From NCBI GenBank assembly GCA_013205085.1, contig JABMLH010000011.1:1-64000 (forward strand): a stretch of 64,000 nucleotides of DNA, written 5' to 3'. The notes beneath the pieces are model-generated. The model saw only the letters and a program-made list of their open reading frames with translations. It was not told the origin of the DNA and searched no databases. Positions 46,309 through 61,557 of the stretch are shown one piece after another (position 1 is the stretch's first letter; each line of letters begins with the position of its first letter). A program made the translations under genes and the position numbers. The DNA is from Microbacteriaceae bacterium VKM Ac-2854 (GTDB lineage Bacteria > Actinomycetota > Actinomycetes > Actinomycetales > Microbacteriaceae).

Positions 46309-46833
46309 CGAGGCAATAGTCCAATGTCGATCGAGAGCCGAGCCACGTTGAACACAAAACGAGCCGAATCCGGTACGGATACGAAACGCGTAGCCGATGT
46401 GGGGACGTGAGAGAGCAGCCTCTCGGCCACGACGGCCATTTCCTACCCCACCGAATTGCTGGCGGCGGCGGACGGCCAGTCAACTAATCGCGAATGTAGG
46501 CCGCCTATCCGTCGGGCGTGATTTGCGTCGAACTTCGGCGTCTTTATCGTTCTGAGGCGGGTCGATGTCGACCTTGGGGCACCCACCCGAGAACGTAGGC
46601 GTAGGACCGGCCGAGGCGTCTTTCGCATCCGGGCGACAAGGAACGCGCCGGTCGGCGACGTCTTTCGCGTCGAACGGTCAAGCGTGTCGTCGCCGGAAAC
46701 ATCGCTCACCTAGTTTCGCGTCAGCGGTCTCAAAATCCGAAGCCGCGGCAGCCCCCTACGGGGCCGACCGAACGCGACGCCGTGCCCGCCTCCGTGTAGA
46801 CGTGGCGGCGTCCTCAACCTTGGGAGAACCTCC
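46309..46833. promoter_or_regulatory. Divergent intergenic region with repeated motifs
   Basis: 525 bases between AraC paralog A and the secreted protein. Near the AraC start is the shared element GAACACAAAACGAGCCGAA (46350-46368). On the other side GGCGTCTTT occurs at 46537 and 46615, and GACGTCTTTCGC at 46657. The last two are 42 bases apart, about four helical turns, as expected for AraC sites. GGCGTCTTT also lies at 58634, before paralog C. No other gene is seen. Confidence 0.55.
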
Positions 46834-47571
46834 GTGCATCCTGCCCACCCCTCAACGCCCAGCCGCCGATCCGTTGTCACCGCTGGAGCGTGGTCGGTCC
46901 CCGCGATCGCGCTTACCGTCGCCGCACCGTCCGCATCGGCTTCGACGTCGGTGCCGTTGCCTGCGCTGACTTTCCGTGTGCCGTTCACCTCACACGAGAT
47001 GCTGAGCTACGCGATCGAGCAGACCGGTTCGACCAACTGGATCGGACTCGTCAAGGACTACTACTACGGGCGCTTCGACAACGCGTCCTACGCCGCGATC
47101 ATGACCTGGGAATCCGAGACCGGAAACTCATTCCCTGCCACGGCCGCCGTCAGCGGCGCCGTGCAGTTCTACGTCAACGTGCGCTACGAGGCGAACAACG
47201 CGTCCGACGGATTCGGCTCCCTCTCGGATGGTCCCTTCATACGCAATGACACGGTCAGCGGAACGATGAGCTGGGCCGCGGGCCGCTACTACATGCCCGA
47301 CTACTCGGAGGTGATCGACGCGTACGACGTCGAGGCGAAAGCCAAGCTGGCTGAGCTTGAGGCCATCCTCTACCCGCAATGGGAGGCCCAGATCGACTGG
47401 GCAGAGGTGGGCCTAGGCACCGTCCGTGACCCGTATCAGTGGACCGCGACGTACACGGCAGCGCTCTCGTTCGCGTCGACCCCCTTCGCGATCCAACCCG
47501 ACTTCACGGGACTCGGCACACCGCCCACGATTGTCTACGACATCAACAATTTCCCATGGACAGCCGGCTGA
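46834..47571 (+). CDS. Tat-type secreted protein 1 of the array
   Basis: 245 residues, GTG start with GGGAGA upstream. The N-terminus reads SRRSVVTAGAWSVPAIALTV then AAPSASAS, the signal shared by all members of this array. The mature part (about 210 residues) has LSYAIEQTGSTNWIGLVKDY, many aromatic residues and no cysteines. I recognise no domain. It is divergent from AraC paralog A. No cell-wall sorting motif is present, so it is likely released or held by another means. Confidence 0.75.
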   Translation: MHPAHPSTPSRRSVVTAGAWSVPAIALTVAAPSASASTSVPLPALTFRVPFTSHEMLSYAIEQTGSTNWIGLVKDYYYGRFDNASYAAIMTWESETGNSFPATAAVSGAVQFYVNVRYEANNASDGFGSLSDGPFIRNDTVSGTMSWAAGRYYMPDYSEVIDAYDVEAKAKLAELEAILYPQWEAQIDWAEVGLGTVRDPYQWTATYTAALSFASTPFAIQPDFTGLGTPPTIVYDINNFPWTAG

Positions 47572-47728
47572 ACGTCCCGCGAAGGAGCCAGTTCGCGGCC
47601 ATGGAGCCCACCTTCCGATGGTCGCGTCCTGCGAAGTGAGAACGGTAACCAGACGCTCCCCGTACAGACATCCACCAATACCCCACGGACTGGGCCCGGT
47701 AGACGCCGCCGTGTCGGAATCGTGAATG

Positions 47729-47760
47729 AACGGGACTGTCTGATAAACGGTGTGTGGGTC
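47729..47760. mobile_element. IS256-like terminal sequence
   Basis: GGGACTGTCTGATAAACGG followed by TGTGTGGGTC resembles the terminal inverted repeat of IS256/mutator-type elements in actinobacteria. No transposase is attached. Confidence 0.4.
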
Positions 47761-47874
47761 TGGCGCATTTCTAGTATGCGTGGGGGTGAGATTCGGAGGC
47801 GGCGGTCGCGCCTTGGGTGGGCGTTCTCGGAAACACCCGGCCAAACACTCTCCGCATGAAGCATCCGCCAATGC

Positions 47875-47975
47875 GCCATGAAACCGAGGTCCGGCAGCAA
47901 CTGATGCCGAGTTCGGTCGCGATGGTGCGATGTCGGGCCATCTCGATGCCCTGGCGCCAGGTGATGGAGCGGTGC
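47875..47975 (-). pseudogene. IS30-family transposase fragment
   Basis: The minus strand encodes RSITWRQGIEMARHRTIATE, very like the IS30-type block R-S-x-T-W-D-Q-G-x-E-M-A-x-H. Downstream the frame degenerates. Confidence 0.45.
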
Positions 47976-48216
47976 TACTCGCGCTGCTCACCATAGGGCC
48001 TGGCCATCCCGAATTCCGTCCTTCGTAGACGAGCGATATTCGATTACGTGGATGTCACCACCCGGATGATGGGGATATCTCACCGCGTAGCGCGGAAGAC
48101 GATCCAGAAGCCCCCTCAAATCGCGCGAGTTTAGACATCCGGACGCGCGCGCACTGATATACAGGTTTTCCTTGTCGCGGGCGAAATTAGCCTATGTTGG
48201 AAGATAAGGAAACCAC

Positions 48217-48726
48217 ATGCAGAACATTCCCTCCTTCGACGGATCTTCGGAGCTTGAGCCGAACGATTCGCCCAAACGGCGGACCGTTATGGCTGGTGCG
48301 GCCTGGACGATTCCTGCGATCGCGGTTGCTGCGGCAGCTCCGCTAGCAGCTGCATCTACAGCGCCGCAACCGGACCTATACAATTTCGCTGCCACCGGTG
48401 GTGCAGCTGCCCCGGGCGAGAAGATCAGTCCATATGTACGGATTCGAAACCGGTCAACGAACCTGCCAGTCGCCGGTCAGATCGGCGTCGTCTTTTTCGC
48501 GCCGTCCGAAGGTTTCGAACTGCGAGACACGAATGGCGCTATTGTCGCCACGCTGCCTGGGACCCCTACAGACGCATCCGGGCGCTCGTTTCCGGCTGAC
48601 GGCGGCGTCTACGTGAAGATCGATACGGTGTCAGGGACGCTCGGTAGTCTCTCGGCGTCGTGGACCAGCCCGGCGCCGGAGAACCGGAACTACGGAACCG
48701 ACTCCCTCGACCTCGAGGCACTCTAG
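48217..48726 (+). CDS. Tat-type secreted protein 2, single Ig-like domain
   Basis: 169 residues. KRRTVMAGAAWTIPAIAVAA then AAPLAAAS is the array export signal. The mature 120 residues look like one bacterial Ig-like (Big_1/invasin-type) domain: PYVRIRNRSTNLPVAGQIGV, SGRSFPADGGVY and SGTLGSLSASW. The protein at 49878 has the same pattern (RIRDKATGAPIEGQ, RGVLGAIRATW), so the two are homologous. Promoter and AAGGAA ribosome binding site are good. No regulator is directly adjacent. Confidence 0.75.
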   Translation: MQNIPSFDGSSELEPNDSPKRRTVMAGAAWTIPAIAVAAAAPLAAASTAPQPDLYNFAATGGAAAPGEKISPYVRIRNRSTNLPVAGQIGVVFFAPSEGFELRDTNGAIVATLPGTPTDASGRSFPADGGVYVKIDTVSGTLGSLSASWTSPAPENRNYGTDSLDLEAL

Positions 48727-48940
48727 CCTCGACCCCTCACGCGTCAAACGAAGTTTCTTCACTACACCCCGTCCCTCCTAACCATCTCCGGCGTGCGTCT
48801 CGTATCCCTAGGGTTGCGAGACGTCTCGCGTTCCGATCGAGCGCGAGCACGGTTGACAGCGAAATTCGGTGTGAATGGCAGCGCTCGGTGGCGGCATTGT
48901 GACATCACTCCGTGTCGTAACACGGCCTCGCGCGCGAAGC

Positions 48941-48970
48941 GGTCGGTCCATCACGCGTGATGGACCGACC
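48941..48970. repeat. 30-base perfect palindrome
   Basis: Arms GGTCGGTCCATCACG (48941-48955) and its exact reverse complement (48956-48970) meet without a spacer. It covers the stop codon of the minus-strand DUF4440-like gene (48951). It may end that transcript or bind a dimeric protein. Confidence 0.85.
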
Positions 48971-49328
48971 CCTGGTGGTACACCGCACGCCATCTCGACT
49001 CGTGTCGACGCCAAACGGTCGCTCGTTGCGAGGGGCGTCCGGCGAAATGTAGTTGATATGTGACCAGGTAGAGGTCGTTCGCCAGTGCGAGAACTGAGAA
49101 GTTGTCGATGCGCCAGGCCTCGTCGTCGGGATCGGTACCGTCGGCGTAACGCCGTGCCACGGTATCGATGACGTCGCCACGGCTATAGAGCGCGCCGGAG
49201 GCGCCGACCTCGAAGAACTCATCCTCCAGCAGCGCGCTAATGGCTTCTCGGTCCGCGCCTGACGGAAGGCGGTGAGTGATCGGTTCCAGGGCCAGCAGCT
49301 GGCCAGCAGGATCCTCATGGTCTGTCAC
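48951..49328 (-). CDS. DUF4440/NTF2-like protein
   Basis: 125 residues from GTG at 49328, preceded by GAAAGAGAG. LPSGADREAISALLEDEFFE, VGASGALYSRGDVIDTVARR, LALANDLYLVTYQLHFAGRP and RRHESRWRAVYHQGS follow the cone-shaped NTF2/DUF4440 fold. No signal peptide. Members bind small molecules or lack an established function. It lies on the same strand as the gene at 49355 and may share its transcript. Confidence 0.75.
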   Translation of the reverse strand: MTDHEDPAGQLLALEPITHRLPSGADREAISALLEDEFFEVGASGALYSRGDVIDTVARRYADGTDPDDEAWRIDNFSVLALANDLYLVTYQLHFAGRPSQRATVWRRHESRWRAVYHQGSVHHA

Positions 49329-49354
49329 CAGTGCATTCTCTCTTTCGGCGTTGG

Positions 49355-49765
49355 TCACGGCCGTCTGCACGTCGCGCCTAAACGCGCCGACAGTCCCGCG
49401 GCGAAGGTGAGAGTGAAGGAGCGTCGTTCGCCCGCGTCGTTCTCGGCGACGACGAATCCGCCCAGCGCTGCTCTTACGATCCACCACTCGAGTGTTTTTC
49501 CGCTGCGGGCTTGGAATCGTGCGCCGGGTAGCGGCGTGCCGTGCTGCCGGGTCCGATCGCTCGTGAGAAGGATGCTGATCTGGTTGAGGGAAAATTGTTG
49601 CTCGATGTTCCCGACCGTCATTGCGGTTGCGGTGCCGCTATCGACGTGGGTGACGGTCCAGATGAGGCGTTCAAGAGGCCCGTCGGGCCCGCGGGTGGTG
49701 AACGCTGTTCCCGGGCCGATGGCCGATCGGCCGTCGGCCCGGGGTGTGGCGGCGGTTGAATTCAC
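49355..49765 (-). CDS. Hypothetical protein
   Basis: 136 residues, GTG start with GGAGA upstream. Beta-rich cytoplasmic protein (LIWTVTHVDSGTATAMTVGN, KTLEWWIVRAALGGFVVAEN). No family recognised. It lies upstream of the NTF2-like gene on the same strand and 112 bases after the array gene at 49878. Confidence 0.55.
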   Translation of the reverse strand: MNSTAATPRADGRSAIGPGTAFTTRGPDGPLERLIWTVTHVDSGTATAMTVGNIEQQFSLNQISILLTSDRTRQHGTPLPGARFQARSGKTLEWWIVRAALGGFVVAENDAGERRSFTLTFAAGLSARLGATCRRP

Positions 49766-49877
49766 GTGCTGTCTCCACTGGTATGCGGGCTCTTATGGCG
49801 GGTGGCGCGGAGTTGGACCCCATCGCCGATCGGGGTGGTGACGCTGCGGCCCAGCTCGCGAGAGTTGCTTGACGTTG

Positions 49878-50459
49878 TTAGTCGTTGACAGAGACGTCGA
49901 CGACGGCGGAGTAGGTGTTCCCGTCCAGGCCCACCCAGGTGGCGCGGATCGCTCCGAGAACCCCGCGGGGCGCATCGGTGTTGAAGGTGACGCTCCCTCG
50001 CGCTGCGCCGGTTGCGTCGCTGAGCGCTGATCCGATGTTCAAGGTGAAGGAGCCGCTGATGTATTCGAACAGCACCGTCTGACCTTCGATCGGCGCCCCG
50101 GTCGCCTTGTCGCGGATGCGCGCCCCGGGCCCATCCTCGGTTCCGGCGGAAAGGGTGGTCCCGGGCTCCCCAGTGGCCGAGATGCCGGCGAAGTCGTAAT
50201 CCAGTACGGGCTGTTCGCCGCTCGCGGCCGCGTTCGGCGCGGTCGCGACGATCGCAATCGCCGGGACGGCCCAGGCCGAGGCTCGCGTAATCGTGCGGCG
50301 GGAAAGGTTCTTGGGGTTGGATCGGCTGCTGCTTACCCCGAGCGGGGGTGGGATGCGAGCTATGTCGTTTCTGACCGCAGAATAAGTCGCGCCGCGCGTA
50401 TCGCGTCGGGTGCGGTCACTCTCAGCGAGATCGCCCAGGCGTCTTTCGTGAGCTGGCAT
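49878..50459 (-). CDS. Tat-type secreted protein 3, single Ig-like domain
   Basis: 193 residues if started at the ATG at 50459, which overlaps the preceding gene by 100 bases. No start codon lies closer to the signal, so translation may be coupled or the 5' end may be damaged. LSRRTITRASAWAVPAIAIV then ATAPNAAAS is the array signal. The mature part resembles the Ig-like domain of protein 2 (ARIRDKATGAPIEGQTVLF, TDAPRGVLGAIRATWVG). Upstream on the same strand are a small membrane protein and AraC paralog B. Confidence 0.65.
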   Translation of the reverse strand: MPAHERRLGDLAESDRTRRDTRGATYSAVRNDIARIPPPLGVSSSRSNPKNLSRRTITRASAWAVPAIAIVATAPNAAASGEQPVLDYDFAGISATGEPGTTLSAGTEDGPGARIRDKATGAPIEGQTVLFEYISGSFTLNIGSALSDATGAARGSVTFNTDAPRGVLGAIRATWVGLDGNTYSAVVDVSVND

Positions 50460-50902
50460 GAACCTGTTGTGGTGCGGCAGCTGGGGTCGGTGACGAGGAA
50501 CCCCGCATGTTCGAGGAGCTGTAGCGTCTGATCGCGCGCCCTGTCGGGATCGCTGACTTGGTAGGTGAAGTTCCAGACGGTGGGTGTTGTCGCGGTGTAG
50601 TCGTGGTCGGTGGCGATCAGCTCCCCGGGCACCACGTCGAGTGCCGCAGGAGCGTCGGTCGGGTAGGGGACCGTTTCGAGCCGGCCGGCAACATTCTGCG
50701 GATGCGGCTGGCGGAGCGCGTCGTCGCGCCCGACGGAGGGTTCGGGGTTCGTTGATGGATTGAAGGCGCCGCTGGCGATCAAGAGGGCAAGGATCCCTAG
50801 CGCGATCACGACGGCTATCCAGGGGCCGGTTCCTGGTGGATGTGGTGGTCGCGTTCCTTTTTGGTGGCTGATCGGTCGTGCTTGTGGTTCCCCTGGTCCC
50901 AT
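50360..50902 (-). CDS. Bitopic membrane protein
   Basis: 180 residues from ATG at 50902; the open frame upstream is not needed. One transmembrane helix (WIAVVIALGILALLIASGAF) separates a basic cytoplasmic N-terminus from an extracellular domain of about 120 residues with a possible disulphide (DPSCRTTTGSCQLTKDAW). The domain has helix and strand stretches like those of small extracellular sensor modules. It sits between AraC paralog B and secreted protein 3, so it might relay or tether. Function unknown. Confidence 0.6.
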   Translation of the reverse strand: MGPGEPQARPISHQKGTRPPHPPGTGPWIAVVIALGILALLIASGAFNPSTNPEPSVGRDDALRQPHPQNVAGRLETVPYPTDAPAALDVVPGELIATDHDYTATTPTVWNFTYQVSDPDRARDQTLQLLEHAGFLVTDPSCRTTTGSCQLTKDAWAISLRVTAPDAIRAARLILRSETT

Positions 50903-51003
50903 GCTTGTGATCCTAATTCGTGAGTGGCTGTCATGGTCTGGTTCGGTGGGCGGAGCTGATCGGGGTGGGCAGGGCGGTTGTCGCGTGGGTGAGCGGGATG
51001 ATC

Positions 51004-51951
51004 TCATCGGTTGAGTTCTCGTCTGATGACGTCGCGCATGGTTCGTATGCTCCGGAATCCTGTTCGTTGGGCGATGTCGGTGAGATCGTGTGCGCTGGTG
51101 GCGTTCAGGCTGGTGATCAGGTCGTGGGCGCGGAGCGCACGCGTGTGTTGAAGGTGGCGTAGAGGGGTTGTTCCTGCTTGGCGGAACACGAGTTGTACGT
51201 AGGAGGCAGAGACGCCGAGTTCCGCTGCGGCATCCGCGAGGCCGAAGTCGGGGTTCGCGAGGTGCGCAGCGAACAGCGCGACCGCTCGGCGATACAGAGA
51301 GCGTGACGCGGATGTCCCTGCAATGATGGGGGCGTCATGGTCATCGACGAGAAATGCCGATGCGGAGGACTCCGCTGCGGTACGCAGATAGGAGAACGAG
51401 GCGGATCGGGGATCGACGCTCGAGTTCAGGATCACGGTCGAGATGTTGCTGAAGGCGACCCGGCCTGCCGAGGACGCGGCTTGGCTTGCGATCAGTTGCT
51501 CCGAACCATCCCCCGCAGCGAGGTGGGCGCGCGGTGTTGTGAGGCTGATGAACGCTGCGGGAGCGACCGTTTCGATGGTGAGGGGTTGGCTGGGGTCGCT
51601 GAGCAGCGCTGACCCGGTTTCGAAAGAGACCTCCCCGAAACGGGCCGCCCTGATTCGGCCACGACCTTCGATCACGAGGGAGAGCTCCGCCGATCTGGAT
51701 GACGTTCGCCGGACGGGACGTACAGCGGTGAGAGCGGAAACCCACAGCCGCCGAAGCTCGAAACCCGAGGCGCGTACGGCGTCGCCGTAGAGGAAAAGGG
51801 GGCGCGCATCTCGCATCACGTGCCAGCCGCTCCGCGCCAGCCAATTGACCGCATCTCCGTCTCGGAGGGCGACATTCCGCTCCACCCAAACAGGATCAGG
51901 TGTCACGGATCTGCTCGGGCTATCGCCGAGAGTTGCTGAGTTGTCTCTCAC
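51004..51951 (-). CDS. AraC-type regulator of the secreted-protein array, paralog B
   Basis: 315 residues from GTG at 51951, chosen because it precedes the conserved part; other GTGs lie downstream. The conserved blocks are WLARSGWHVM, LFLYGDAVRASGFELRRLWV and VILNSSVDPR. The AraC helix-turn-helix pair is LGVSASYVQLVFRQAGTTPL with GFRSIRTMRDVIRR. It is divergent from the glycine-rich secreted protein at 52121. The space between carries ACACGAAT at 52006 and 52022. Compared with paralogs A and C the blocks are collinear, so they share ancestry and probably a ligand type. Confidence 0.8.
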   Translation of the reverse strand: MRDNSATLGDSPSRSVTPDPVWVERNVALRDGDAVNWLARSGWHVMRDARPLFLYGDAVRASGFELRRLWVSALTAVRPVRRTSSRSAELSLVIEGRGRIRAARFGEVSFETGSALLSDPSQPLTIETVAPAAFISLTTPRAHLAAGDGSEQLIASQAASSAGRVAFSNISTVILNSSVDPRSASFSYLRTAAESSASAFLVDDHDAPIIAGTSASRSLYRRAVALFAAHLANPDFGLADAAAELGVSASYVQLVFRQAGTTPLRHLQHTRALRAHDLITSLNATSAHDLTDIAQRTGFRSIRTMRDVIRRELNR

Positions 51952-52120
51952 GACTAAGACAATGGCGAAAGCTATACACCATGACGCGGGTGACGTGAGA
52001 CACGAATGGACAGTTCGTGAAACACGAATATTCCGCGGATATGTCGCCGAGTAGCTATCGCGTGGGCTGTACTCGATTCCGTTCCGCGGGAGTCGCGGGA
52101 GGAATGAGGAATAGCAGGCC
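51952..52120. promoter_or_regulatory. Divergent promoter region of AraC paralog B and glycine-rich protein
   Basis: Contains two ACACGAAT units (52006-52013, 52022-52029), 16 bases apart, as candidate AraC sites. The segment 52070-52112 (TACTCGATTCCGTTCCGCGG to GAGGAAT) is closely repeated at 54977-55018 before the paralogous glycine-rich gene. Confidence 0.55.
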
Positions 52121-53353
52121 GTGGTGAACGAGATGGAACAGACGGATGAGGGCGCCGGCCTTCCCGAAATAACCAGGATGGGTCGGCGAACGATCATGCA
52201 AGGCGCGGCGTGGACGATCCCGGTGGTCGTGGGAGCAGCGTCGGCGCCGCTCGCTGCGGCGTCGGTACCCAGCGAGTGCGTTCAGGTCGGATCGGTTGTC
52301 GGTTTGACGGTTCCTAATGTGTCGAATGGGGCGAACCAGGCTCCCACGAAGGTGGCGGGCGGCTACATGGTGAGCGTTCCGGCCGGTACGACGACAATCT
52401 GTTATCGAATCGGTGGTGGCGGTGGCGGCAGCGACACCGGGACCATCGGCGGATACGGCGGCGACGGCGGTAGCGGTGCGTTGATCACGGGGTCGATCCC
52501 GGCGAACATGGTCGGCTCGACCTTCCAGGTCATCATCGCTAGTGGCGGTCAGGGTTCCGAGTACGCGAACGCGGCCGGCTCGTCGCTGGACTACGGCGGA
52601 TCCGGGTACACGACCGGCGGTGACGGCGGGTTCTTCGCCGCCGGTGGCGGTGGTAGCTCGGCGATCCTGACCACGGGCGGATCTCCGCTCGTCGTCGCGG
52701 CCGGCGGTGGTGGCGGTGGAGGTAAGGGCGGTAACCCGCCTGGTCAGGACATCGGCTACAGCGGCGCCCACGGCGCTACCGCGGACGCCCTGATCCCCAA
52801 CGGCCCCGGCGGGACGGGTGTGATCACTCGCGACATCTCCGGCACCGTTCCGGCGACCATGTCCACGCCCGGCGGCGCAAGCGCGGTCTACGCAGCCGAC
52901 GGCGGCAACGGCCAGTCCGTCGGCTACAGCACGACGACTCAGATCAATGTCGGATTCTTCCTCCCGGACCCGAACCCGACGACGAAGCAGCCGGGGTGGG
53001 GGTTCCTCAGTCCCTTCACGAACGGCGCAACGGGACCCGGCGGCGGCGCGATGGGCGGCGGCGGCGGCGGCGGCGGCGGCGGCTACCAGAATGGTGGGCT
53101 CGCGGGGTCAGCGACCGCGAACGGCTGGAACGGTAACGTCAACACCGCAGCCGAGGTCTTCGGTGGTGGCGCCGGCGCGGGTCAGAGCTACGTGGCCACC
53201 GGAATCGGCGGCGGCTTCGACCCGGCTGGGGCCGGCAACGGCGGCTACGCCCCGACCTCGGGTGGCGTCTCCAACCCTGCTGTCCCCACCAGCCGCGGCG
53301 GCGACGGTTTCGCGACGTTCACCTTCTACCAAGGCTCCGACTGCGCCTGCTAA
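52121..53353 (+). CDS. Tat-type secreted protein 4, glycine-rich
   Basis: 410 residues from GTG at 52121 (ATG at 52133 also possible). GAGGAAT with good spacing precedes the GTG, and the same layout recurs at the paralog. GRRTIMQGAAWTIPVVVGAA then SAPLAAAS is the array signal. The mature protein is rich in glycine with regular Gly-Gly-X stretches (GGYGGDGGSGALITG, SSAILTTGGSPLVVAAGGGG), like the ALK-type glycine-rich domain found in many bacterial surface proteins. It ends in a Cys pair (DCAC). Divergent from AraC paralog B. Likely an exposed beta/polyglycine-helix adhesive protein. Confidence 0.75.
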   Translation: MVNEMEQTDEGAGLPEITRMGRRTIMQGAAWTIPVVVGAASAPLAAASVPSECVQVGSVVGLTVPNVSNGANQAPTKVAGGYMVSVPAGTTTICYRIGGGGGGSDTGTIGGYGGDGGSGALITGSIPANMVGSTFQVIIASGGQGSEYANAAGSSLDYGGSGYTTGGDGGFFAAGGGGSSAILTTGGSPLVVAAGGGGGGGKGGNPPGQDIGYSGAHGATADALIPNGPGGTGVITRDISGTVPATMSTPGGASAVYAADGGNGQSVGYSTTTQINVGFFLPDPNPTTKQPGWGFLSPFTNGATGPGGGAMGGGGGGGGGGYQNGGLAGSATANGWNGNVNTAAEVFGGGAGAGQSYVATGIGGGFDPAGAGNGGYAPTSGGVSNPAVPTSRGGDGFATFTFYQGSDCAC

Positions 53354-53689
53354 GCGCTCCGGCAGATCGTGCGCCACTCCCGGCGCACGATCTGCCACAA
53401 CCCATCGCGAATACCGGCGTGTCGGACTTCTGCGATCCGAACGCTCACCACTCCCCCTAGCAGAGAAAAGAAACCAACATGACGGGCGTAACGATCCGAA
53501 TTCCGGTCTCGCTTCAGCGCCGTCAAACCGATCGGTGATAATCGTCCTTATCCGTCGGCGGATGCTTCTGCCGCGCGCGAAAGCCGTCCGTCGGCGTCCG
53601 CGCGAGTGGAGCGTTGCCGTCGTGGTCGCGGCGTTTTCGCGTTCACAGACCGGACCGCCCACCGGCACCCGAACAAGGAGCACACCGCC
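53354..53689. other. Gap before secreted protein 5
   Basis: 336 bases. It begins with a weak hairpin (GGCGCACGATCTGCC region near 53370-53395) after the glycine-rich gene. A possible 19-residue ORF (53479-53538, MTGVTIRIPVSLQRRQTDR) has an AAAGAAA upstream and could be a leader peptide. The end carries the AAGGAG ribosome binding site of the next gene. Nothing else is seen. Confidence 0.4.
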
Positions 53690-54379
53690 ATGCCCACACC
53701 CGACACCGCTCGAGCCAGATCGATGAGCCTGCTCCCTCGACGAACCGTTGTCGCTGCAGCCGCTTGGGCGACACCCGTCCTCGCTTTCACCGCCGCAGCC
53801 CCGGCCGCTGTCGCGTCCGAATCGATGGTATGCCCCACAGGAGTGATGCCGGCCGTGATCGTGTCGCAACTCGATCCGTCCGACTGGCTCGTCTTTCAGG
53901 CGCGCTCATGGTGGACGATGTCAAGCAAATACTTCGGAATCGACACAACGCTCGTCGATCCCGCGGTCTACGGCACGACCTACGAATTCTCTCTGCTGGG
54001 CGGAACACGATTCACGACAACGAGCGGCGGCAGCGGCGTCGCCCCGTGGTACATGTTCCCGAGCACGTTCACAGGCACGGTCGGCTCGATCACCCCACTT
54101 CCCATCGTCGACGAGACGATCGGCGACGTGAACCTGCTGGTCGTGCCGGACGTCTACGACCCGAATTCGAACGTCGATGTGTCCTTCGACGCTTCCGATG
54201 CATACACGCCGTCGTCGGTGCAGTTCACCGTCGAGTTGCGATTCACCAGCCCGACGACGGGCCAGCAGATCGTCTGCATGCAAGAGCTCTTCTACGACGT
54301 CGCGAGCACATTCACCGGTGGGCCCATCATCAACGGACACGGCAACCTCCACCTGACAGGCACCATTGCCGCAGCCTGA
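53690..54379 (+). CDS. Tat-type secreted protein 5
   Basis: 229 residues from ATG at 53690, preceded by AAGGAG. LPRRTVVAAAAWATPVLAFT then AAAPAAVAS is a more diverged form of the array signal. The mature part of about 185 residues has MVCPTGVMPAVIVSQLDPSD, then Thr/Ser-rich beta strands (TFTGTVGSITPLPIVDE), DVSFDASDAYTPSSVQFTVE and QQIVCMQELFYDV, so one disulphide is possible. No domain recognised. It follows the glycine-rich gene in the same direction. Confidence 0.7.
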   Translation: MPTPDTARARSMSLLPRRTVVAAAAWATPVLAFTAAAPAAVASESMVCPTGVMPAVIVSQLDPSDWLVFQARSWWTMSSKYFGIDTTLVDPAVYGTTYEFSLLGGTRFTTTSGGSGVAPWYMFPSTFTGTVGSITPLPIVDETIGDVNLLVVPDVYDPNSNVDVSFDASDAYTPSSVQFTVELRFTSPTTGQQIVCMQELFYDVASTFTGGPIINGHGNLHLTGTIAAA

Positions 54380-54894
54380 CCCCAGGTCCCTCTCGAGTCG
54401 CAACCACCACGAACTCGCGGTGCTGACACACATGGCGGCGTTGCGGTCCCCCTGATTCCCCTCCCGTCGCGTCAAGGCGCTCTCGTCACAGCACGGCGCG
54501 CAGCGTCCGTGCGGCCGGTCTCGACGGATCAGTCTTGGAGATCTCGAACGAGTTCGAGCAGTCGGTCGGCGGTGCGCCGATCGGTGAATCTGTCACTTCG
54601 TCCCAGCAGGCCGGCCATGTTCTCCAGTACGTTCGCGGCGAAGTCGCTGGAGCCGTCTCGGGCGCAGGAATACGCGAACTCGGCATGATGAGCAGGACAC
54701 CTTCTTCCCCGGTGGGCGCGGCGTTGTTCGTCAGCAGAGGGCCTGGCATCTCGCCAGGGTAGGGGGCTGCCTGACGCTCTCGCCTAGCCACGGTCGATTT
54801 CGTTTTTCCGCGGTCTGTCGCATCGCGTTCTCAAGATCCGGGAGAGCCATTCTCCTCGAGAACGAACGAACTAGAAAAAGTCTTCCGTCGAGGT
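54380..54894. other. Gap with a gene fragment
   Basis: About 515 bases without an intact gene. A minus-strand fragment (54529-54705) is described separately. The part after 54760 is AT-richer and leads into the promoter of the next array gene. Confidence 0.5.
54529..54705 (-). pseudogene. C-terminal gene fragment
   Basis: An open minus frame encodes HHAEFAYSCARDGSSDFAAN, VLENMAGLLGRSDRFTDRRT and ADRLLELVRDLQD then stop. It looks like the helical end of a soluble protein, but has no start or upstream body. Source family unknown. Confidence 0.4.
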
Positions 54895-54976
54895 TGATGA
54901 CGCGAGAAGCGAGCACGAAGTTCCCGAAAGACGACGATTCTGAGCGTTCGTGGCGAACGCCGGAGTGCTTGAGGTC

Positions 54977-55025
54977 TACTCGATTTCGATCCGCGAGCGT
55001 CGTGGAAGAACGAGGAATTGTGATC
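54977..55025 (+). promoter_or_regulatory. Duplicated promoter and ribosome binding segment
   Basis: TACTCGATTTCGATCCGCGA to GAGGAAT (54977-55018) is a close copy of 52070-52112 in front of the other glycine-rich gene. GAGGAAT has good spacing to the TTG at 55026. Confidence 0.65.
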
Positions 55026-56186
55026 TTGGTAGAAGAGATGAAGCCGGAACTCCCCCAGCACGGGGCCGCTTCCGAACTGACCCGAAGCGGAGTCCATCGC
55101 CGCACGCTGGTACGGGGGGCGGCGTGGACGATCCCTGTCGTCGCCGTCGCGGCGACGGCCCCCACAGCAGCGGCAAGCGGATGCGTCAGCGGTAGCTTCA
55201 CAGCGACGGCGCCGAGCAGCTCGAGTAGCCCCGCGGCGACGACGAGCACGTTCGTTGTGCCCAACGCAGTGACCACGTTGACCTTCGCGGTCGCTGGGGG
55301 CGCCGGCGGCAGCGCGACCTATTGGGATCACGCGCCCGTTGGACGCGGCGGTGACGGCGCCCTCGTGAACGGGACCCTGGCCGTGACCCCGGGCCAGGTC
55401 CTGACCCTTATCGTCGGCCAGGGCGGCATGGGCGAGGACAACATCGCAGGCGATGTCGATGGCGCCTCCGGTGTGGCGCCAGGGCGCGCCGGCGGCGGCG
55501 GCTACGGCGACGGCGGATCCACCCTCTGGTCCGGCGGCCCGAACGCCTTCTACGACAGTTTCGCGGGCGGATCCGGCGGCGGCGGGTCCGCCATTCTGTT
55601 GGGCGGCTCCCCGCTCGTCATCGCGGGCGGCGGCGGCGGCTCCGGCGCATGGAACGGCCGCGACATCCCCACCAGCCCCGGATACGGCAAACCACCGCAG
55701 AACGGCGGCAGCGGCAACGCTAACGGCACCGCCAATGGGTCGGACGGTAACAACTCCGAACTCGCCGCCGGCGGATGGTTCCCCCCGACGTGGACCGTCT
55801 CCGCTGGACACGGAGCGATCGGGGCAACACCGGGCGTCGGCGGTAGCACCGGGACCGGCTCGGGCGGCACAACCACGCTTCTGCCCGGACTCGCCGCGAC
55901 CGGACAAAACGGCGCGGCCGGCGTATCCGCGGCGCGCGGCGGCCGCGCGCTCGTCTCCGGTGCCGGCGGCGGCGGCTATGCAGGCGGTGGATCCGGAGGC
56001 CGCACAGACACGGCATCAGTTCCCAGCACGACCATCCCCTGGGCCATGGCAGGCGCCGCCGGCGGAGCGGGATCCAGCTTCCTCTCCCCCGCAGCAGGCG
56101 GCACCTTCACCCAAGCCGGCAACTCCCCCACCGCGCCCCTCGTGCGCAACCCCGGATGGATCACGCTGTCCTGGACCTGCGAATAA
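55026..56186 (+). CDS. Tat-type secreted protein 6, glycine-rich paralog
   Basis: 386 residues from TTG at 55026 (ATG at 55038 possible). The non-ATG start is preferred by comparison with the gene at 52121. HRRTLVRGAAWTIPVVAVAA then TAPTAAAS is the array signal. The mature protein again has many Gly-Gly-X stretches (LTFAVAGGAGGSATYW, PLVIAGGGGGSGAWN) and ends in TLSWTCE. It is a paralog of the protein at 52121. A perfect hairpin terminator follows. No full-length regulator is divergent from it, but a small AraC-like gene lies downstream. Confidence 0.75.
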   Translation: MVEEMKPELPQHGAASELTRSGVHRRTLVRGAAWTIPVVAVAATAPTAAASGCVSGSFTATAPSSSSSPAATTSTFVVPNAVTTLTFAVAGGAGGSATYWDHAPVGRGGDGALVNGTLAVTPGQVLTLIVGQGGMGEDNIAGDVDGASGVAPGRAGGGGYGDGGSTLWSGGPNAFYDSFAGGSGGGGSAILLGGSPLVIAGGGGGSGAWNGRDIPTSPGYGKPPQNGGSGNANGTANGSDGNNSELAAGGWFPPTWTVSAGHGAIGATPGVGGSTGTGSGGTTTLLPGLAATGQNGAAGVSAARGGRALVSGAGGGGYAGGGSGGRTDTASVPSTTIPWAMAGAAGGAGSSFLSPAAGGTFTQAGNSPTAPLVRNPGWITLSWTCE

Positions 56187-56227
56187 CACCCACAATCGCA
56201 GCTCCGCGAGCGACCCAGTTGAACGAA

Positions 56228-56258
56228 ACGCGGTCGCGGGTCGCACCCGCGACCGCGT
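56228..56258 (+). terminator. Terminator after secreted protein 6
   Basis: ACGCGGTCGCGGGT (56228-56241) pairs exactly with ACCCGCGACCGCGT (56245-56258), loop CGC. Starts 41 bases after the stop. Confidence 0.85.
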
Positions 56259-56306
56259 GAATCCGCCAGTCACCATTGACCGGGCATAACGCAGGACGGA
56301 GGTAGT

Positions 56307-56334
56307 CGGGGCCACGACCGGCACCGTGGCCCCG
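56307..56334. terminator. Second hairpin after secreted protein 6
   Basis: CGGGGCCACG (56307-56316) and CGTGGCCCCG (56325-56334). A very similar hairpin (GGGGCCACGGT) lies at 57417-57444, so the pair brackets the two small genes between them. Confidence 0.65.
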
Positions 56335-56512
56335 GCCCTTCCTAATCCCGCCCAGCACGCCTCGCCTACACGGCACACCCACAGTGACGCCCGCACCACT
56401 TAAAGAGTGAGCATCACCTCACGGCGCTGCCTCTGGCTTCGCGATCGCTCCGACCGGCTCCCACACCTCCACTGCGCGAGGCACATACACAACGATCCAT
56501 CAGATAGCGAAT

Positions 56513-56917
56513 ATGAACATAACGAACAACCGGGCCCTCTCCCGCGAGACGGCGCAGAACGCGCGCAAGATCGTGTTGCAGGCGCTGGGCCAGTTCCGAG
56601 ACCCGCACCTCACCCCCGCGCGGATCCTTCGCACCGCGAACGTTCCACCGCTGCGGACGGCGATCCGATTCCGGCGCGCGTTCGGGCACTCGCTCGCAAC
56701 ACATCTCACCCTGCTGCGCGTCGCCGCGGCGACCGAGGCCATGATCGGCGCGGATCCCCGAGACCCCGACCCGCTGACCACCATCGCCCAGACGGCCGGA
56801 TTCACCGACGCCGCCGCGCTAGGACGAGCATTCCGCCGTCACCGACAAACCAGCAGCTATGAAGCCCTCCTGCGAATCAGCGCGGCCCGCGACCGGCCAC
56901 GACCCGAACAGGACTAA
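56513..56917 (+). CDS. Short AraC-like DNA-binding protein
   Basis: 134 residues. Only the C-terminal AraC double helix-turn-helix is present: TPARILRTANVPPLRTAIRF and TTIAQTAGFTDAAALGRAFR, then RHRQTSSYEALLR. It lacks the sensor half of the three longer regulators. No ribosome binding site precedes the ATG, and AGATAGCGAATATG runs into it, so the mRNA may be leaderless. AGATAGCGAA recurs at 57487 and TATAGCGAA at 57528. It could modulate the other AraC proteins by competing for sites. Confidence 0.65.
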   Translation: MNITNNRALSRETAQNARKIVLQALGQFRDPHLTPARILRTANVPPLRTAIRFRRAFGHSLATHLTLLRVAAATEAMIGADPRDPDPLTTIAQTAGFTDAAALGRAFRRHRQTSSYEALLRISAARDRPRPEQD

Positions 56918-57100
56918 GCCCGACACCCCATCTCGCACCGTATCGGCGAAGGCAGAGCGAAGAACACCTGCACACCTGGTCAACGAAACCGGTGCCACAT
57001 AGCAAAGATGTGCGCTCGGCGCAAGATGCTGCGCTTGACTTTCAAGCGAAGCGACTTCTTGTCATGCTGATATCGGCATCTTGCTGACGGAAAGGGGCCG

Positions 57101-57322
57101 ATGACACACGATCGCGTCTACATCCTGATCGACAGAGGATTATGGGGTAGTGAGCGGATGGTCGGCGCTTATCTGACAGAGAAGGCTCTTCGCGCCGCGA
57201 TCGACATCCGCCGCTTGGACCTGACGGTCGACATCGGTGACACGCTGCTCGTTCAAACCTGGGCCGGAGGGAATCTTCTCTGCAGCCGCAAGGGCTCAGA
57301 ACTCATCGACGATACCGCCTAG
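57101..57322 (+). CDS. Small hypothetical protein
   Basis: 73 residues with GGAAAGGGG before the ATG. Soluble alpha/beta protein (DRVYILIDRGLWGSERMVGA, YLTEKALRAAIDIRRLDLTV, GDTLLVQTWAGGNLLCSRKG). No family known. Between two related hairpins and near the operator-like repeat at 57483. Confidence 0.55.
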   Translation: MTHDRVYILIDRGLWGSERMVGAYLTEKALRAAIDIRRLDLTVDIGDTLLVQTWAGGNLLCSRKGSELIDDTA

Positions 57323-57416
57323 TTCGGCACCGTAGTGCCGCGACTGTTGGGCAGCTCCAGAGAAGAACGACGCCTGGCGCAGGAACGTAACCACTGCGAG
57401 GGATTAGTTCGAAAGT

Positions 57417-57444
57417 GGGGCCACGGTCCGCCAACCGTGGCCCC
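57417..57444. terminator. Hairpin terminator
   Basis: GGGGCCACGGT (57417-57427) pairs exactly with ACCGTGGCCCC (57434-57444). Related to the hairpin at 56307-56334. Confidence 0.75.
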
Positions 57445-57482
57445 GGGGCAGCCGACCGGGGGATGGTCGATCTGCCGAGTCA

Positions 57483-57512
57483 TTTAGATAGCGAACCCGT
57501 TCACCATCTAAA
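57483..57512. promoter_or_regulatory. 30-base imperfect palindrome, possible operator
   Basis: TTTAGAT (57483-57489) and ATCTAAA (57506-57512) are exact arms. GAAC and GTTC pair inside. It lies 170 bases beyond the 3' end of secreted protein 7 with no gene start nearby, so its target is unclear. Confidence 0.5.
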
Positions 57513-57683
57513 ATGACCAGTGCTCACTATAGCGAATGTCTGCTTCGCTTCCCTACATAGACAAATCCCGTCGAGGCCCACCGCCGTGATCAGGCGACGG
57601 CGAGACAGACGTCGCGGCAGCAAGGCCACGCCGTCCGTTCGTCGCAGTCATCCTCGCGGACGACAGCCTCGGCGGTGTGCGGG

Positions 57684-58502
57684 TTAGTTGCAGCTGAAGG
57701 CGAAGAGGTTGGTGAGTGCGGCCGTGTGGTCGGGCTGCGCGTCGGACCACTGACCGGCGGCGGTGAGGGCGAGTTTGGGGCTGAGCGCGCCGATTGCGGA
57801 GGTCCAGGCGCTGGAGATGACGGGGATGGCCGTGGCGATGGAGTTGATGAGCGCGAAGCCGGGAACGCCGGTGACATCCGGGGGGACGAGGGCGCCGAAG
57901 TAGCCCCAGAAGGTGTCATCGCCGGGCACGAGCCCGTTCAGAGTCAGTTCACGCTGGATGTCCCAGGTGACGCTGATCGTCACGGTCGCCGCGAGCCCGG
58001 AACCGTTGATGACGCGAGTGACGGTGGGCGGGGAGAGGTAGTCGCCCAGGCTGGTCGGGGAGATCCAGAAGTCGCCGGCGACCTTGGGCCCGCTGACGGC
58101 GAGGGCGGCCGGGGTGAGCACGGCGGCGACGATCGCGGTGGCGTAGGCAAGGGAGAACGCATCGAACGCGGCTTCGAAGGCGAGGTTGTTGGTTGCGTCG
58201 ATCCCGAACGGGGCGGGAAGGTTCAGGCTCCAGGTTCCCGTGGCGGTCTCGGTGACCACGAGCTGGCTGGGGATGGGTTCGGAGGGGCTATCCGCATGCA
58301 CCCGGAACCCGGGCGCGATAAGCCCGGTGCCACCAGCGTCTAGGACGCAGTCGCTGACGATACTCACGTTCCACGGGTTGGTACTGGGAGATGCTGACGC
58401 CATGGGCGCGGCGACCGCGACCGCGACCGCGGGCACCGTCCACGCGGCGCCCTTGACGAGGGTGCGGCGGCGGGGACCGCTGGCGGGAATGATGTCGTTC
58501 AT
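57684..58502 (-). CDS. Tat-type secreted protein 7
   Basis: 272 residues from ATG at 58502 with AGGAG upstream. RRRTLVKGAAWTVPAVAVAV then AAPMASAS is the array signal. The mature part of about 230 residues begins NPWNVSIVSDCVLDAGGTGL and ends TNLFAFSCN, so the two cysteines may be bridged. The middle is hydrophobic and beta/alpha mixed (AYATAIVAAVLTPAALAVSG). No domain recognised. It is divergent from AraC paralog C across 238 bases that include a GGCGTCTTT motif at 58634. Confidence 0.75.
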   Translation of the reverse strand: MNDIIPASGPRRRTLVKGAAWTVPAVAVAVAAPMASASPSTNPWNVSIVSDCVLDAGGTGLIAPGFRVHADSPSEPIPSQLVVTETATGTWSLNLPAPFGIDATNNLAFEAAFDAFSLAYATAIVAAVLTPAALAVSGPKVAGDFWISPTSLGDYLSPPTVTRVINGSGLAATVTISVTWDIQRELTLNGLVPGDDTFWGYFGALVPPDVTGVPGFALINSIATAIPVISSAWTSAIGALSPKLALTAAGQWSDAQPDHTAALTNLFAFSCN

Positions 58503-58740
58503 GAGGGCTCCTGGTGTTTCGGGTGCGGGGCTCGGAGAGCGGAGATGACCGCTCGGTGTCTGTAGCGAGTGTGGCGATCGGGTTCGCGTTGTTGCGACAT
58601 AATCTCGGAAATGGTTTCTTTCGCCCCTTCCGGTGGCGTCTTTCAGCCGGAGTGCGTCACGCGGGCAGGGTCTTCGCGCCACCCCTGCAAGAGAAACCTG
58701 CTGCAGCGTTGAGCTGCCGACCCGATATTTGGAGGATGAC

Positions 58741-59637
58741 ATGGCCGACTTCTCGGTCGAACGACAATTAGCGCTACAGAATGAGGAGGCCGTCAGCTGG
58801 CTGGAGCATCGCGGTTTTCAGGTGCACAGCTACACGCGTCCGTTTCACGTGTTCACGGACGAGATTCGGCAGGACGACTTCGTGTTGCGTCGGGTGTGGT
58901 TCACGGCCGCCCACGCGTCTCGGGCGGCCGACACGGGGCCGGAACGTCGTTTCGAGGCGTCTTTGGTGATCGAGGGCGACGGGACGGTCGATATCGATCG
59001 CGCAGGCGCGATCGGTCTCGGTGCCGGGCAGCTGCTGCTGCGCACCCGGGCGGTGCCGCTGGAGGTGCGCACCACGCAGCCGGCGGCCGTGATTCAGGTG
59101 GAATCGAAGTGGGACCGGCTAACGCATCTCGGATCCGCTCCGACGGAACCGTTCGAGGCGAATGAGGAGTACGCGAGCGTGTTCGCCACCCTCGCCACCG
59201 CGATCCTCAACTCCACGATCGGTCCGACCGATGGCGGTTTCACCGCGCTACGGCGCGCCGTCGAAGCGGCGCTCTCCGCGATCGTGGCCGACCCTTTGAC
59301 CGGGATCAGGCAGCGAATGGCTTCGGCGGCGCAATGGACCCTGTATCAGCGGGCGGTGACTCTGATCGCTGCCCGCGCGGACGACGCCGCCCTGGACGTC
59401 TCCGTCCTGGCGAGTGAGCTCGCAGTGTCCAAGCAGTATCTGCAGCGCGCCTTCCGCGCGGCGGGGACGTCGCCGATGCGGTACCTCCGACTCGTCCGTG
59501 CCACCAACGCGCGCGCCCTCCTCGATGCCAACCCTGCAGCCGGCCGAGATGACCTCGAGGCCATCGCCCACCAGACCGGGTTCAACACCGTGGAAACCAT
59601 GAACGACGTCATCACCCGCGAACTCAGACCCAGCTAA
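58741..59637 (+). CDS. AraC-type regulator of the secreted-protein array, paralog C
   Basis: 298 residues from ATG at 58741 with a GGAGG ribosome binding site. Conserved blocks: WLEHRGFQVH, HVFTDEIRQDDFVLRRVWFT, AILNSTIGPT, then the AraC helix-turn-helix LAVSKQYLQRAFRAAGTSPM with GFNTVETMNDVITR. The cupin-like middle part (SLVIEGDGTVDIDRAGAIGL) aligns with the SLVIEGRGRIRAARFGEVSF region of paralog B. It is divergent from secreted protein 7 and convergent with secreted protein 8. It probably controls one or both. Confidence 0.82.
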   Translation: MADFSVERQLALQNEEAVSWLEHRGFQVHSYTRPFHVFTDEIRQDDFVLRRVWFTAAHASRAADTGPERRFEASLVIEGDGTVDIDRAGAIGLGAGQLLLRTRAVPLEVRTTQPAAVIQVESKWDRLTHLGSAPTEPFEANEEYASVFATLATAILNSTIGPTDGGFTALRRAVEAALSAIVADPLTGIRQRMASAAQWTLYQRAVTLIAARADDAALDVSVLASELAVSKQYLQRAFRAAGTSPMRYLRLVRATNARALLDANPAAGRDDLEAIAHQTGFNTVETMNDVITRELRPS

Positions 59638-59692
59638 CCCTCGACACTAACCCTCGACGAGATCCTGGCGGCGCTCCGGCGGGAGAACGAGG

Positions 59693-59718
59693 AGGGCGCG
59701 GGCAGATGCCCGCGCCCT
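59693..59718. terminator. Hairpin terminator between convergent genes
   Basis: AGGGCGCGGGCA (59693-59704) pairs exactly with TGCCCGCGCCCT (59707-59718). The two-base gap means the innermost pairs must open. It lies between AraC paralog C and convergent secreted protein 8. Confidence 0.75.
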
Positions 59719-59823
59719 ATCGTCGGCTGCTCACCAGACGCTGACGACGAACCGACCTTAGTGCCCGCCCGAGATCGCAGGTCTCGCCGCACCGCGTGCG
59801 GGCTGCCGCCCTGCCGGGGGGAC

Positions 59824-60435
59824 TCAGTCGTCGGAGTCGATCACGTGCACGGTGAATGTGGTCGAGGACAGTGTCGATCCGTCGGTCGCGACCACGTCGA
59901 TCGTGAAGATGCTCGTGGCCACCACGTCGTTCCCGAACTCGTCCGAGGTAGAGATGAAGAGGTTGCCCGTCGTCGCCAGGCCCGGCCGGACGATGGTTTC
60001 CCCGATGCGGTCCTCGAATTCGCTGGTGCTGTGCTCGACACGAGTGGGAGCATCGACGAAGAAGAGCACGTACGGGCCGAAGATCCCGGGGCTGGGTGAG
60101 GCGACGGTCGTGTTCGTCACCCGGACGGTCGCACCGGCGGTCGGGTTCGTGACGGTGTATCCGACGCCGTAGGTGAGGTCACCGGCGCCGTTGCCGAGGT
60201 AGCGGTGATCACCGACGAGGTTGAACGTCCCGGTCGCGGCGTCATAGCTGGAGACACGGCCCGGCTCCGACTCGGACTGACCGTTGAACGTGAGGACGAC
60301 GACGTTCGAGCCGGTCCAGTTGGACGCCGCAGCCATCGGCGCAGCACTCGCGGCCGCCACCGCGGGAATGGTCCAAGCGGCACCATGGACGATGGTTCGT
60401 CGGCGCACGTTGTTCGGCTGGGTGATGTCGTTCAT
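59824..60435 (-). CDS. Tat-type secreted protein 8
   Basis: 203 residues. RRRTIVHGAAWTIPAVAAAS then AAPMAAAS is the array signal. The mature part of 165 residues is beta-rich and acidic: NVVVLTFNGQSESEPGRVSS, LTYGVGYTVTNPTAGATVRV and VVATDGSTLSSTTFTVHVID. It has the look of one or two small beta-sandwich domains and lacks cysteine. N-terminal MNDI is also shared with protein 7, suggesting recent common origin of the 5' ends. A dyad at 60496-60532 lies upstream. Confidence 0.75.
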   Translation of the reverse strand: MNDITQPNNVRRRTIVHGAAWTIPAVAAASAAPMAAASNWTGSNVVVLTFNGQSESEPGRVSSYDAATGTFNLVGDHRYLGNGAGDLTYGVGYTVTNPTAGATVRVTNTTVASPSPGIFGPYVLFFVDAPTRVEHSTSEFEDRIGETIVRPGLATTGNLFISTSDEFGNDVVATSIFTIDVVATDGSTLSSTTFTVHVIDSDD

Positions 60436-60774
60436 AACACTCCACGGGTTCGAGATCGGAATGCGCGGACGGTCAAATGTTGCTTATCCGCGCACATTCG
60501 AGTGTGGCAAGAGCGCTCTCCCGCACTCGAATCCAGCTCGATACCGGCGCCGTTCACCCCGAATGGTGGCGCCTTTCACCACATCCCGTCACTAGAGCAC
60601 GATCCTCGGGTCGCTCCATTCCGACGTCTTCCGACCTCGAATCGGGCAACAACCAACCCGAAAACGGACGCCTACGCTGGCGAATCCCCCGGGCATTGGC
60701 GGAACGTGCTCGCCTGCCATCCCGAGGCGCTCCGAACGGAAGTCCGCACCGTCATCGCCCTCAGCGGTGGAAGC
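60436..60774. promoter_or_regulatory. Upstream region of secreted protein 8
   Basis: About 340 bases without a gene. It holds the dyad at 60496-60532 and should contain the promoter for the minus-strand gene. The other side is the 3' end of the TetR gene. Confidence 0.45.
60496..60532. promoter_or_regulatory. Nested dyad, candidate operator
   Basis: ATTCGAGTG (60496-60504) and CACTCGAAT (60524-60532) are exact arms. At their centre is the palindrome AGAGCGCTCT (60510-60519). About 60 bases upstream of the start of secreted protein 8. Confidence 0.55.
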
Positions 60775-61485: not shown

Positions 61486-61486
61486 C

Positions 61487-61510
61487 TCGCTATAGTACCT
61501 GGTGTAGCGA
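61487..61510. promoter_or_regulatory. Inverted repeat, probable TetR operator
   Basis: TCGCTA (61487-61492) and TAGCGA (61505-61510) with a 12-base centre, directly beside the TetR start and 47 bases before the dehydrogenase ATG. Confidence 0.6.
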
Positions 61511-61557
61511 GACTACATGAGTCCATATGTTCGATACACACGAGGAAACGAAGACAG

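Follow-up and report, generated by a model that had tools for sequence, protein, structure and literature searches.

Eight genes for exported proteins lie between positions 46834 and 60435 of a 64,000-nucleotide stretch of Microbacteriaceae bacterium VKM Ac-2854 (GenBank assembly GCA_013205085.1, contig JABMLH010000011.1, positions 1 to 64,000), which is referred to below as the window. All eight proteins begin with one common twin-arginine translocation (Tat) signal, and three full-length AraC-type regulators and a piece holding a helix-turn-helix (HTH) domain alone are interleaved with them. An earlier note on this DNA described the signals and the payloads behind them and overlooked what we consider the main feature, namely AraC regulators with pair-specific repeats at the payload promoters. 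The best reading of the locus and its relatives is that they probably encode separately switched exported recognition or adhesion proteins. The features of the locus are listed here. Starts of exported proteins were taken as the nearest ATG at most 45 codons ahead of the signal, or else the nearest GTG or TTG, and several remain uncertain.

45325..46308, minus strand: AraC-type regulator, divergent from 46834; HTH_18 39.9 bits (cut-off 33.6); member of the AraC clade treated below.
46515 and 46537: weaker copies of the repeats in the next line.
46615..46669, plus strand: tentative half-site-like repeats GGCGTCTTTCGC / GACGTCTTTCGC, 42 bp apart (2 x 21), upstream of 46834.
46834..47571, plus strand: exported protein 1; signal at 46849-46953; no Pfam or NCBIfam match; mature part without Cys.
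48217..48726, plus strand: exported protein 2; found with the signal profile; kin of protein 3.
49878..50459, minus strand: exported protein 3; weakly immunoglobulin (Ig)-like (Big_1 under cut-off); a start closer to the signal is likely.
51004..52197, minus strand: AraC-type regulator, divergent from 52121; HTH_18 38.8 bits (cut-off 33.6), AraC_binding_2 29.8 bits (cut-off 27); clade member; the conserved region spans 51010-51903, which puts the probable true start near 51903.
51994..52028, plus strand: putative operator CGTGAGACACGAA / CGTGAAACACGAA, 22-bp spacing, 139 bp upstream of the start at 52133.
52121..53353, plus strand: exported protein 4; glycine-rich; Cys near both termini.
53606..54379, plus strand: exported protein 5; start probably 53723; found with the signal profile.
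54894..56186, plus strand: exported protein 6 (55026 in the earlier note); glycine-rich; Cys near both termini; start probably 55038.
56513..56917, plus strand: AraC HTH domain alone, without a sensor-domain match; HTH_18 34.4 bits (cut-off 33.6).
57684..58502, minus strand: exported protein 7; Cys near both termini.
58633..59637, plus strand: AraC-type regulator, divergent from 57684 and tail-to-tail with 59824; HTH_18 42.9 bits (cut-off 33.6); clade member; conserved part begins at 58735.
59824..60435, minus strand: exported protein 8; found with the signal profile.
60546..60580, minus strand: putative operator GGTGAAAGGCGCC / GGTGAACGGCGCC, 22-bp spacing, 145 bp upstream of the 59824 start.

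The export signal is a gap-free tag of fixed length (27 residues). A six-frame scan of the window for RR ahead of W-x-x-P returned the eight genes and one spurious match at 8286, in a frame with stops. The eight signals align with end gaps only, and 10 of 36 columns are invariant. In the tag, RR is followed by hydrophobic residues at +3/+4, a moderately hydrophobic core and an AxA end, with near-invariant Trp at +9 and Pro at +12 and +21. Among 86 sequences from the genus, which were gathered by profile and are therefore biased towards it, RR stands exactly nine residues ahead of W-x-x-P in 85, and most run without a gap as far as the AxA-S end; in the per-column table one sequence with a short N-region is off by one, and near-invariant columns are slightly undercounted. 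TatC is encoded once in the genome. The Pfam TAT_signal family gave nothing over cut-off genome-wide, and its 16 weak places include one of the 37 signals described next (9.9 bits). No sortase motif or hydrophobic tail was flagged at the C-terminus of 85 genus proteins; two LPxTG-like strings within the last 60 residues, both from outside the window, are not followed by a hydrophobic tail.

A profile of the eight signals, with which 150 of 228 first-look candidates from the same genome were scored, gave 42 matches, 37 of them strong (E <= 3.3e-8) and 5 weak (E >= 0.009). The window holds the largest cluster: its eight signal genes occupy 13.6 kb, and when 37 genes were placed at random along one 4.75-Mb line 20,000 times, no such stretch received more than 5. 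A neighbouring signal gene lies within 7 kb of 22 of the 37 (random mean 3.7, maximum 14); the profile came from the eight, yet 14 of the 29 genes outside the window have such a neighbour. At E <= 1e-5 the signal was found in all 15 genomes of the genus (this one included; 5-37 copies each). Outside the genus, one of 10 genomes of the same family had it, and none of 15 genomes of different families. A broader profile, made from 52 signals, reached at least 34 of 299 family genomes and at least 16 of 85 genera, again including this one; these are lower bounds, with at most 26 candidates scored per genome. In a phylum sample of 296 genomes (this one included), a single genome of another family had one match. 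The signal is thus patchy in the family and nearly absent beyond it, and a generic Tat consensus does not explain it. Much of what the earlier note had said of the signal agrees with these data: its presence in eight genes, all close to where they had been placed, on diverse and probably exported proteins, and the lack of a sortase motif. Clustering beyond chance and a sequence distinct from the generic Tat signal support its interpretation in part. The array does not constitute a self-contained system as proposed there, since the genome has 29 of its 37 copies outside the window, and no evidence was found that the signal, which ends in an ordinary AxA-type site, tethers the proteins.

HTH_18 is over cut-off in all four AraC proteins of the window. 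AraC_binding_2 is over cut-off in the 51004 regulator only; the other two full-length regulators align along this domain, and 56513 has no match to it. The AraC clade has nine clear members in this genome (E <= 2.4e-36), and a search of 40 relatives, with at most 60 candidates scored per genome, gave 67 matches (E <= 1e-30) in 11 genomes, all of one genus. Forty-eight of these 67 have a signal gene no more than 1 kb away in the fetched surroundings; relative to the nearest such gene, 30 of the 48 are divergent, 15 tail-to-tail and 3 on the same strand. The other 19 comprise 6 at 1.2-2.2 kb, 2 at 4 and 8 kb and 11 far away. Because the relatives' regions were picked for their AraC matches, the share of AraC genes with a signal gene nearby is a fair measure, and the share of signal genes with an AraC gene is not. 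Inside 13 kb of one relative's genome, six signal starts and six clade AraC genes are interleaved. In our genome, where the search had no such bias, a divergent clade AraC lies within 1.3 kb of 6 of the 37 signal genes and an AraC of profile score at least 60 within 3 kb of 16, so that the signal family is wider than the regulator clade. Of 20 regions fetched from other genera, 8 combine a signal gene with an AraC-like match no more than 3 kb away, among them 4 of the 7 from genome G101.

Several other arrangements were seen. In four genomes of another genus, g27 (L138, L147, L149, L156), a similar signal gene has an AraC-like match at a distance of about 2 kb, an arrangement that resembles a single conserved locus. 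Tandem AraC HTH matches stand directly upstream, on the same strand, of signal proteins at C1:325-327 kb and C18:30-32 kb (L031, L050), perhaps as a second regulator layout. A conserved AraC group, mostly remote from signal genes, is present in 9 of the 14 other genus genomes. An in-frame stop interrupts 5 of the 67 clade matches in relatives, and regulator decay may therefore be common. Solved relatives of the clade profile in the PDB include AdpA and SoxS; with a single window AraC protein, a PDB sequence search gave nothing meaningful and a plasmid search gave no match, and the AraC alignment, scanned against named genomes, returned one irrelevant locus.

Direct repeats at the payload promoters are concentrated at two spacings. 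In 40 regions upstream of divergently paired payloads, repeats of at least 11/13 positions occur in 5 regions at a spacing of 21 bp and in 5 at 22 bp, where dinucleotide shuffles predict 0.15 and 0.32; the third-ranking of 47 spacings, 26 bp, has 3 regions. Repeats of at least 10/13, spaced 21-22 bp and placed 80-160 bp from the start, are found in 18 of the 40 pairs, compared to 0.85-1.04 expected from mononucleotide shuffles and to a mean of 0.94 (maximum 2) for other spacing pairs. The half-sites of different pairs are dissimilar (best-of-four mean 4.5/13); half-sites within a pair agree by selection, and the informative quantity is this mismatch between pairs. The exceptions are two ortholog pairs that match at 13/13. 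A further pair, G009 C63, with an HTH 82% identical to that of one ortholog-pair member, was assigned a different site, yet shares theirs at an equal score of 10. Within the window, repeats of at least 11/13 occur twice at 22 bp, upstream of 52121 and 59824, and six times at 21 bp, two of the latter in 44-62 kb and neither upstream of an array gene. A scan for promoters and terminators returned 4 sigma-70 promoters versus 2.1 (standard deviation 1.3) in shuffled sequence, and 7 terminators versus 9.3.

Regulators and payloads also show parallel relatedness. Across the 40 divergent pairs, payloads tend to be more similar the higher the identity of their AraC partners (Mantel r = 0.372), a value reached in none of 5000 permutations, either overall or within genomes only; orthologous modules common to several species contribute to this correlation. 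The mean identity of the AraC proteins is 0.231 in the sensor half and 0.369 in the HTH half. A tree of 68 clade members has 42 genome-label changes (shuffled mean 49.3, minimum 44), and the nine members from our genome fall within a group of 12 (support 0.94). The grouping by genome is modest, implying that much of the radiation is probably older than the species.

The payloads themselves are diverse. Pfam and NCBIfam gave no family over cut-off for any of the eight window proteins. The earlier note had called the payloads unrelated, which holds for most of them; 48217 and 49878 are related (33% identity, one BLAST cluster), as are 52121 and 54894 (35%), leaving six payload kinds rather than eight. 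Its glycine-rich label for the latter two is correct, and its Ig-like label for the former two is weak, because only 49878 matches Big_1 and does so under cut-off (E 0.025, 15.1 bits versus 34.9). Protein 5 has a 76% identical payload on contig C14 with the same kind of signal, and protein 7 has one relative (37%) on contig C5, likewise beside clade AraC genes. Searched in 299 family genomes, these two payloads (53606, 57684) had relatives in their own genome only, with the same signal kind. Payload 57684 had no match in a plasmid search, and PDB sequence searches with it and with a repeat payload gave nothing meaningful.

In the sampled genus regions the commonest payload cluster accounts for 35 of 86. 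On visual inspection, its members mostly begin with an Ig-like part, and in many of them tandem units of about 68-86 residues come next. DNA repeats of score at least 150, up to 99% alike, are present in 18 of 86 signal genes, and such near-identical repeats within payload genes point to repeat amplification. Near-identical intragenic units were observed in L097, L087, L084 and others, for example 207 bp x 3.7 (96%) and 222 bp x 3.0 (99%). A tandem-repeat scan of 44-62 kb in the window found short arrays only; repeated payloads occur in relatives. Judged from sequence, the repeat payloads may fold as propellers: one member of the C1/C18 group in our genome resembles an RCC1-like propeller under cut-off, and Reg_prop matches are likewise under cut-off. 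Pfam searches with nine other payloads placed DUF11 over cut-off in one. Rubredoxin and DUF3850 matches in one perfect-repeat protein came from the whole-protein score only, with no single stretch passing, and were taken for a repeat artefact.

Many payloads also have a common cysteine layout. A Cys within the first 35 residues and another within the last six are found in 42 of 83 payloads (shuffled mean 0.8, maximum 4), including 40 of the 45 with exactly two Cys. Thirty-two of these, one of which is an odd short frame, come from the commonest cluster and cannot count as independent; the other 10 represent at least five further kinds, among them 52121, 54894 and 57684 of the window.

Other genes accompany the array. 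A DUF4440 protein (48951-49487) and a small protein without a family match (50360-51007) lie inside it. Further along the window, at 60775-62313, a TetR regulator is divergent from a short-chain dehydrogenase/reductase (SDR) oxidoreductase; the best plasmid match of the SDR is in Curtobacterium sp. MCJR17_020 (80.4%), with SDR and TetR genes annotated under the match.

These observations lead us to propose a genus-expanded repertoire of exported proteins, with no enzyme domain found, each bearing the fixed 27-residue twin-arginine signal. Many members would form modules with an AraC/XylS-type regulator of the dedicated clade, often divergent. Each regulator would bind its own pair of direct half-sites, about two helical turns apart and 80-160 bp upstream of the partner start, and would turn its payload on upon a cue sensed by the variable N-terminal domain. 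The payload would then exit via Tat, be cleaved at AxA and act extracellularly in binding, in adhesion or as a decoy; in many payloads a disulfide would join the two ends. A more elaborate proposition, in which cells display one or few members of a recognition or decoy repertoire per cue, many with their own AraC sensor and private operator, and sensor, operator and payload diversify together on a constant frame of the 27-residue signal and an end-to-end Cys clasp, is possible, and we advance it only tentatively.

A number of results weigh against separately switched recognition or adhesion proteins. Only 3 of the 8 window genes have a full-length divergent AraC, 21 of the 37 signal genes in this genome have no AraC of score at least 60 within 3 kb in the fetched stretches, and 4 of the 14 other genus genomes carry signal genes and no clade AraC at E <= 1e-30. 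The 11 far AraC genes and one of the nearer six form a conserved clade nested in the array-linked radiation. No 10/13 repeat stands at the expected place in 22 of the 40 divergent pairs; in the window, 57684 lacks a strong repeat and 46834 has the 42-bp-spaced one only. Signal genes without a divergent AraC also have repeats, at 10/13 in 5 of 46 (shuffles 1.29) and at 11/13 in 3 of 46 (shuffles 0.11). All three of the latter (59824 and one each in G010 and G013) stand tail-to-tail to a clade AraC gene, a pattern suggesting that the regulator acts on the payload promoter whatever its own orientation. Strong repeats occur in 12 of 62 signal genes with an AraC within 3 kb and in 1 of 24 beyond that distance, a difference that is not significant (Fisher p = 0.10). 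Finally, structure prediction gave no confident fold for a payload: 49878, modelled by AlphaFold with 48217 in the alignment, has a predicted local distance difference test (pLDDT) score of 53.0, and a single-sequence prediction of payload 57684 has one of 52.8.

The proteins may instead be ordinary secreted proteins with a lineage-specific Tat signal, beside which the AraC genes have no special meaning. The scatter of 29 of the 37 signal genes outside the window, the 21 without a nearby AraC and the four genomes with signals and no clade AraC would all be expected of such proteins, but the AraC neighbourhood, the co-relatedness and the spacing-specific repeats are each above their controls, and the signal does not reach threshold in 265 of the 299 family genomes. 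We regard this explanation as rather unlikely. A fixed chassis of signal, AraC and often a Cys clasp, combined with a fast-changing sensor, operator and payload, fits separately switched binding proteins better than housekeeping secretion.

Cassette evolution, which the earlier note favoured, would have one signal DNA segment recombined repeatedly onto new payloads. This would account for unrelated payloads with a signal in common and for two window payloads without a relative in the 298 other genomes searched. At fourfold-degenerate sites, compared where aligned residues are equal, agreement is 0.426 for all 37 signals of this genome (0.414 expected from codon usage) and 0.369 for the eight window signals (0.356 expected). 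Agreement no higher than codon usage predicts implies that in this genome the signal is conserved as a protein and not by recent cassette copying; consistently, payload paralogs retain the same kind of signal. One relative is somewhat over expectation (0.622 versus 0.565), and recent copying is possible there. The fourfold sites weaken the cassette explanation for recent time, ancient swapping being possible, and overall we judge it improbable. That the genes are antagonism loci, with toxin or bacteriocin payloads and AraC genes sensing competitors, is equally doubtful: multi-gene arrays of diverse payloads, two of them without relatives in 298 other genomes, would suit it, but no toxin or enzyme family is over cut-off among the eight window proteins in Pfam or NCBIfam.

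The best-known repertoires of outside-facing proteins under separate control are those of host-associated microbes. The genus studied here seems to have assembled such a repertoire from widespread components, combining one unchanging signal with numerous AraC sensors, whose operators differ from each other, and with payloads that change fast. Should the pairs prove insulated from one another, nature would have provided a set of orthogonal AraC switches, from which one could learn directly how AraC specificity and operator diverge together. The Trp/Pro-locked signal raises the question of whether recognition by Tat, or by a partner of Tat, extends beyond the twin arginine. No title or abstract opening describing this system was found in the literature, where subscription papers lie mostly outside the coverage of the search.

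Individual parts of the system resemble known ones. The signal has the RR with hydrophobic +3/+4 residues, the moderately hydrophobic core and the AxA end of the Tat consensus, in a genome that encodes TatC; it differs in its gap-free fixed length, in the near-invariant Trp and Pro residues and in scoring under the TAT_signal cut-off. The near-identical tandem units of about 68-86 residues in the commonest payload family are reminiscent of recently amplified beta-propellers, as far as the portion of that work drawn on here describes them (PMC9218822), with the difference that the repeats here are known at the sequence level and their RCC1-like and Reg_prop matches are under cut-off. For the regulators, the half-sites of E. 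coli AraC have a 21-bp spacing, close to that of the putative half-sites at the payload promoters. The closest parallels, in the parts of the two papers used here, are E. coli AraC-araBAD, an AraC/XylS regulator with a divergent target (PMC6018408), and P. aeruginosa CdhR, whose binding sites are direct repeats that lie upstream of the divergent caiX promoter (PMC5806209). Our regulators have in common with these HTH_18, the divergent layout, direct repeats upstream of the target and, in one of the three window regulators, an AraC_binding_2-like N-terminal domain. Unlike those described there, they are present as many paralogs, each apparently with its own half-site, and adjoin exported proteins of no known family rather than catabolic genes.

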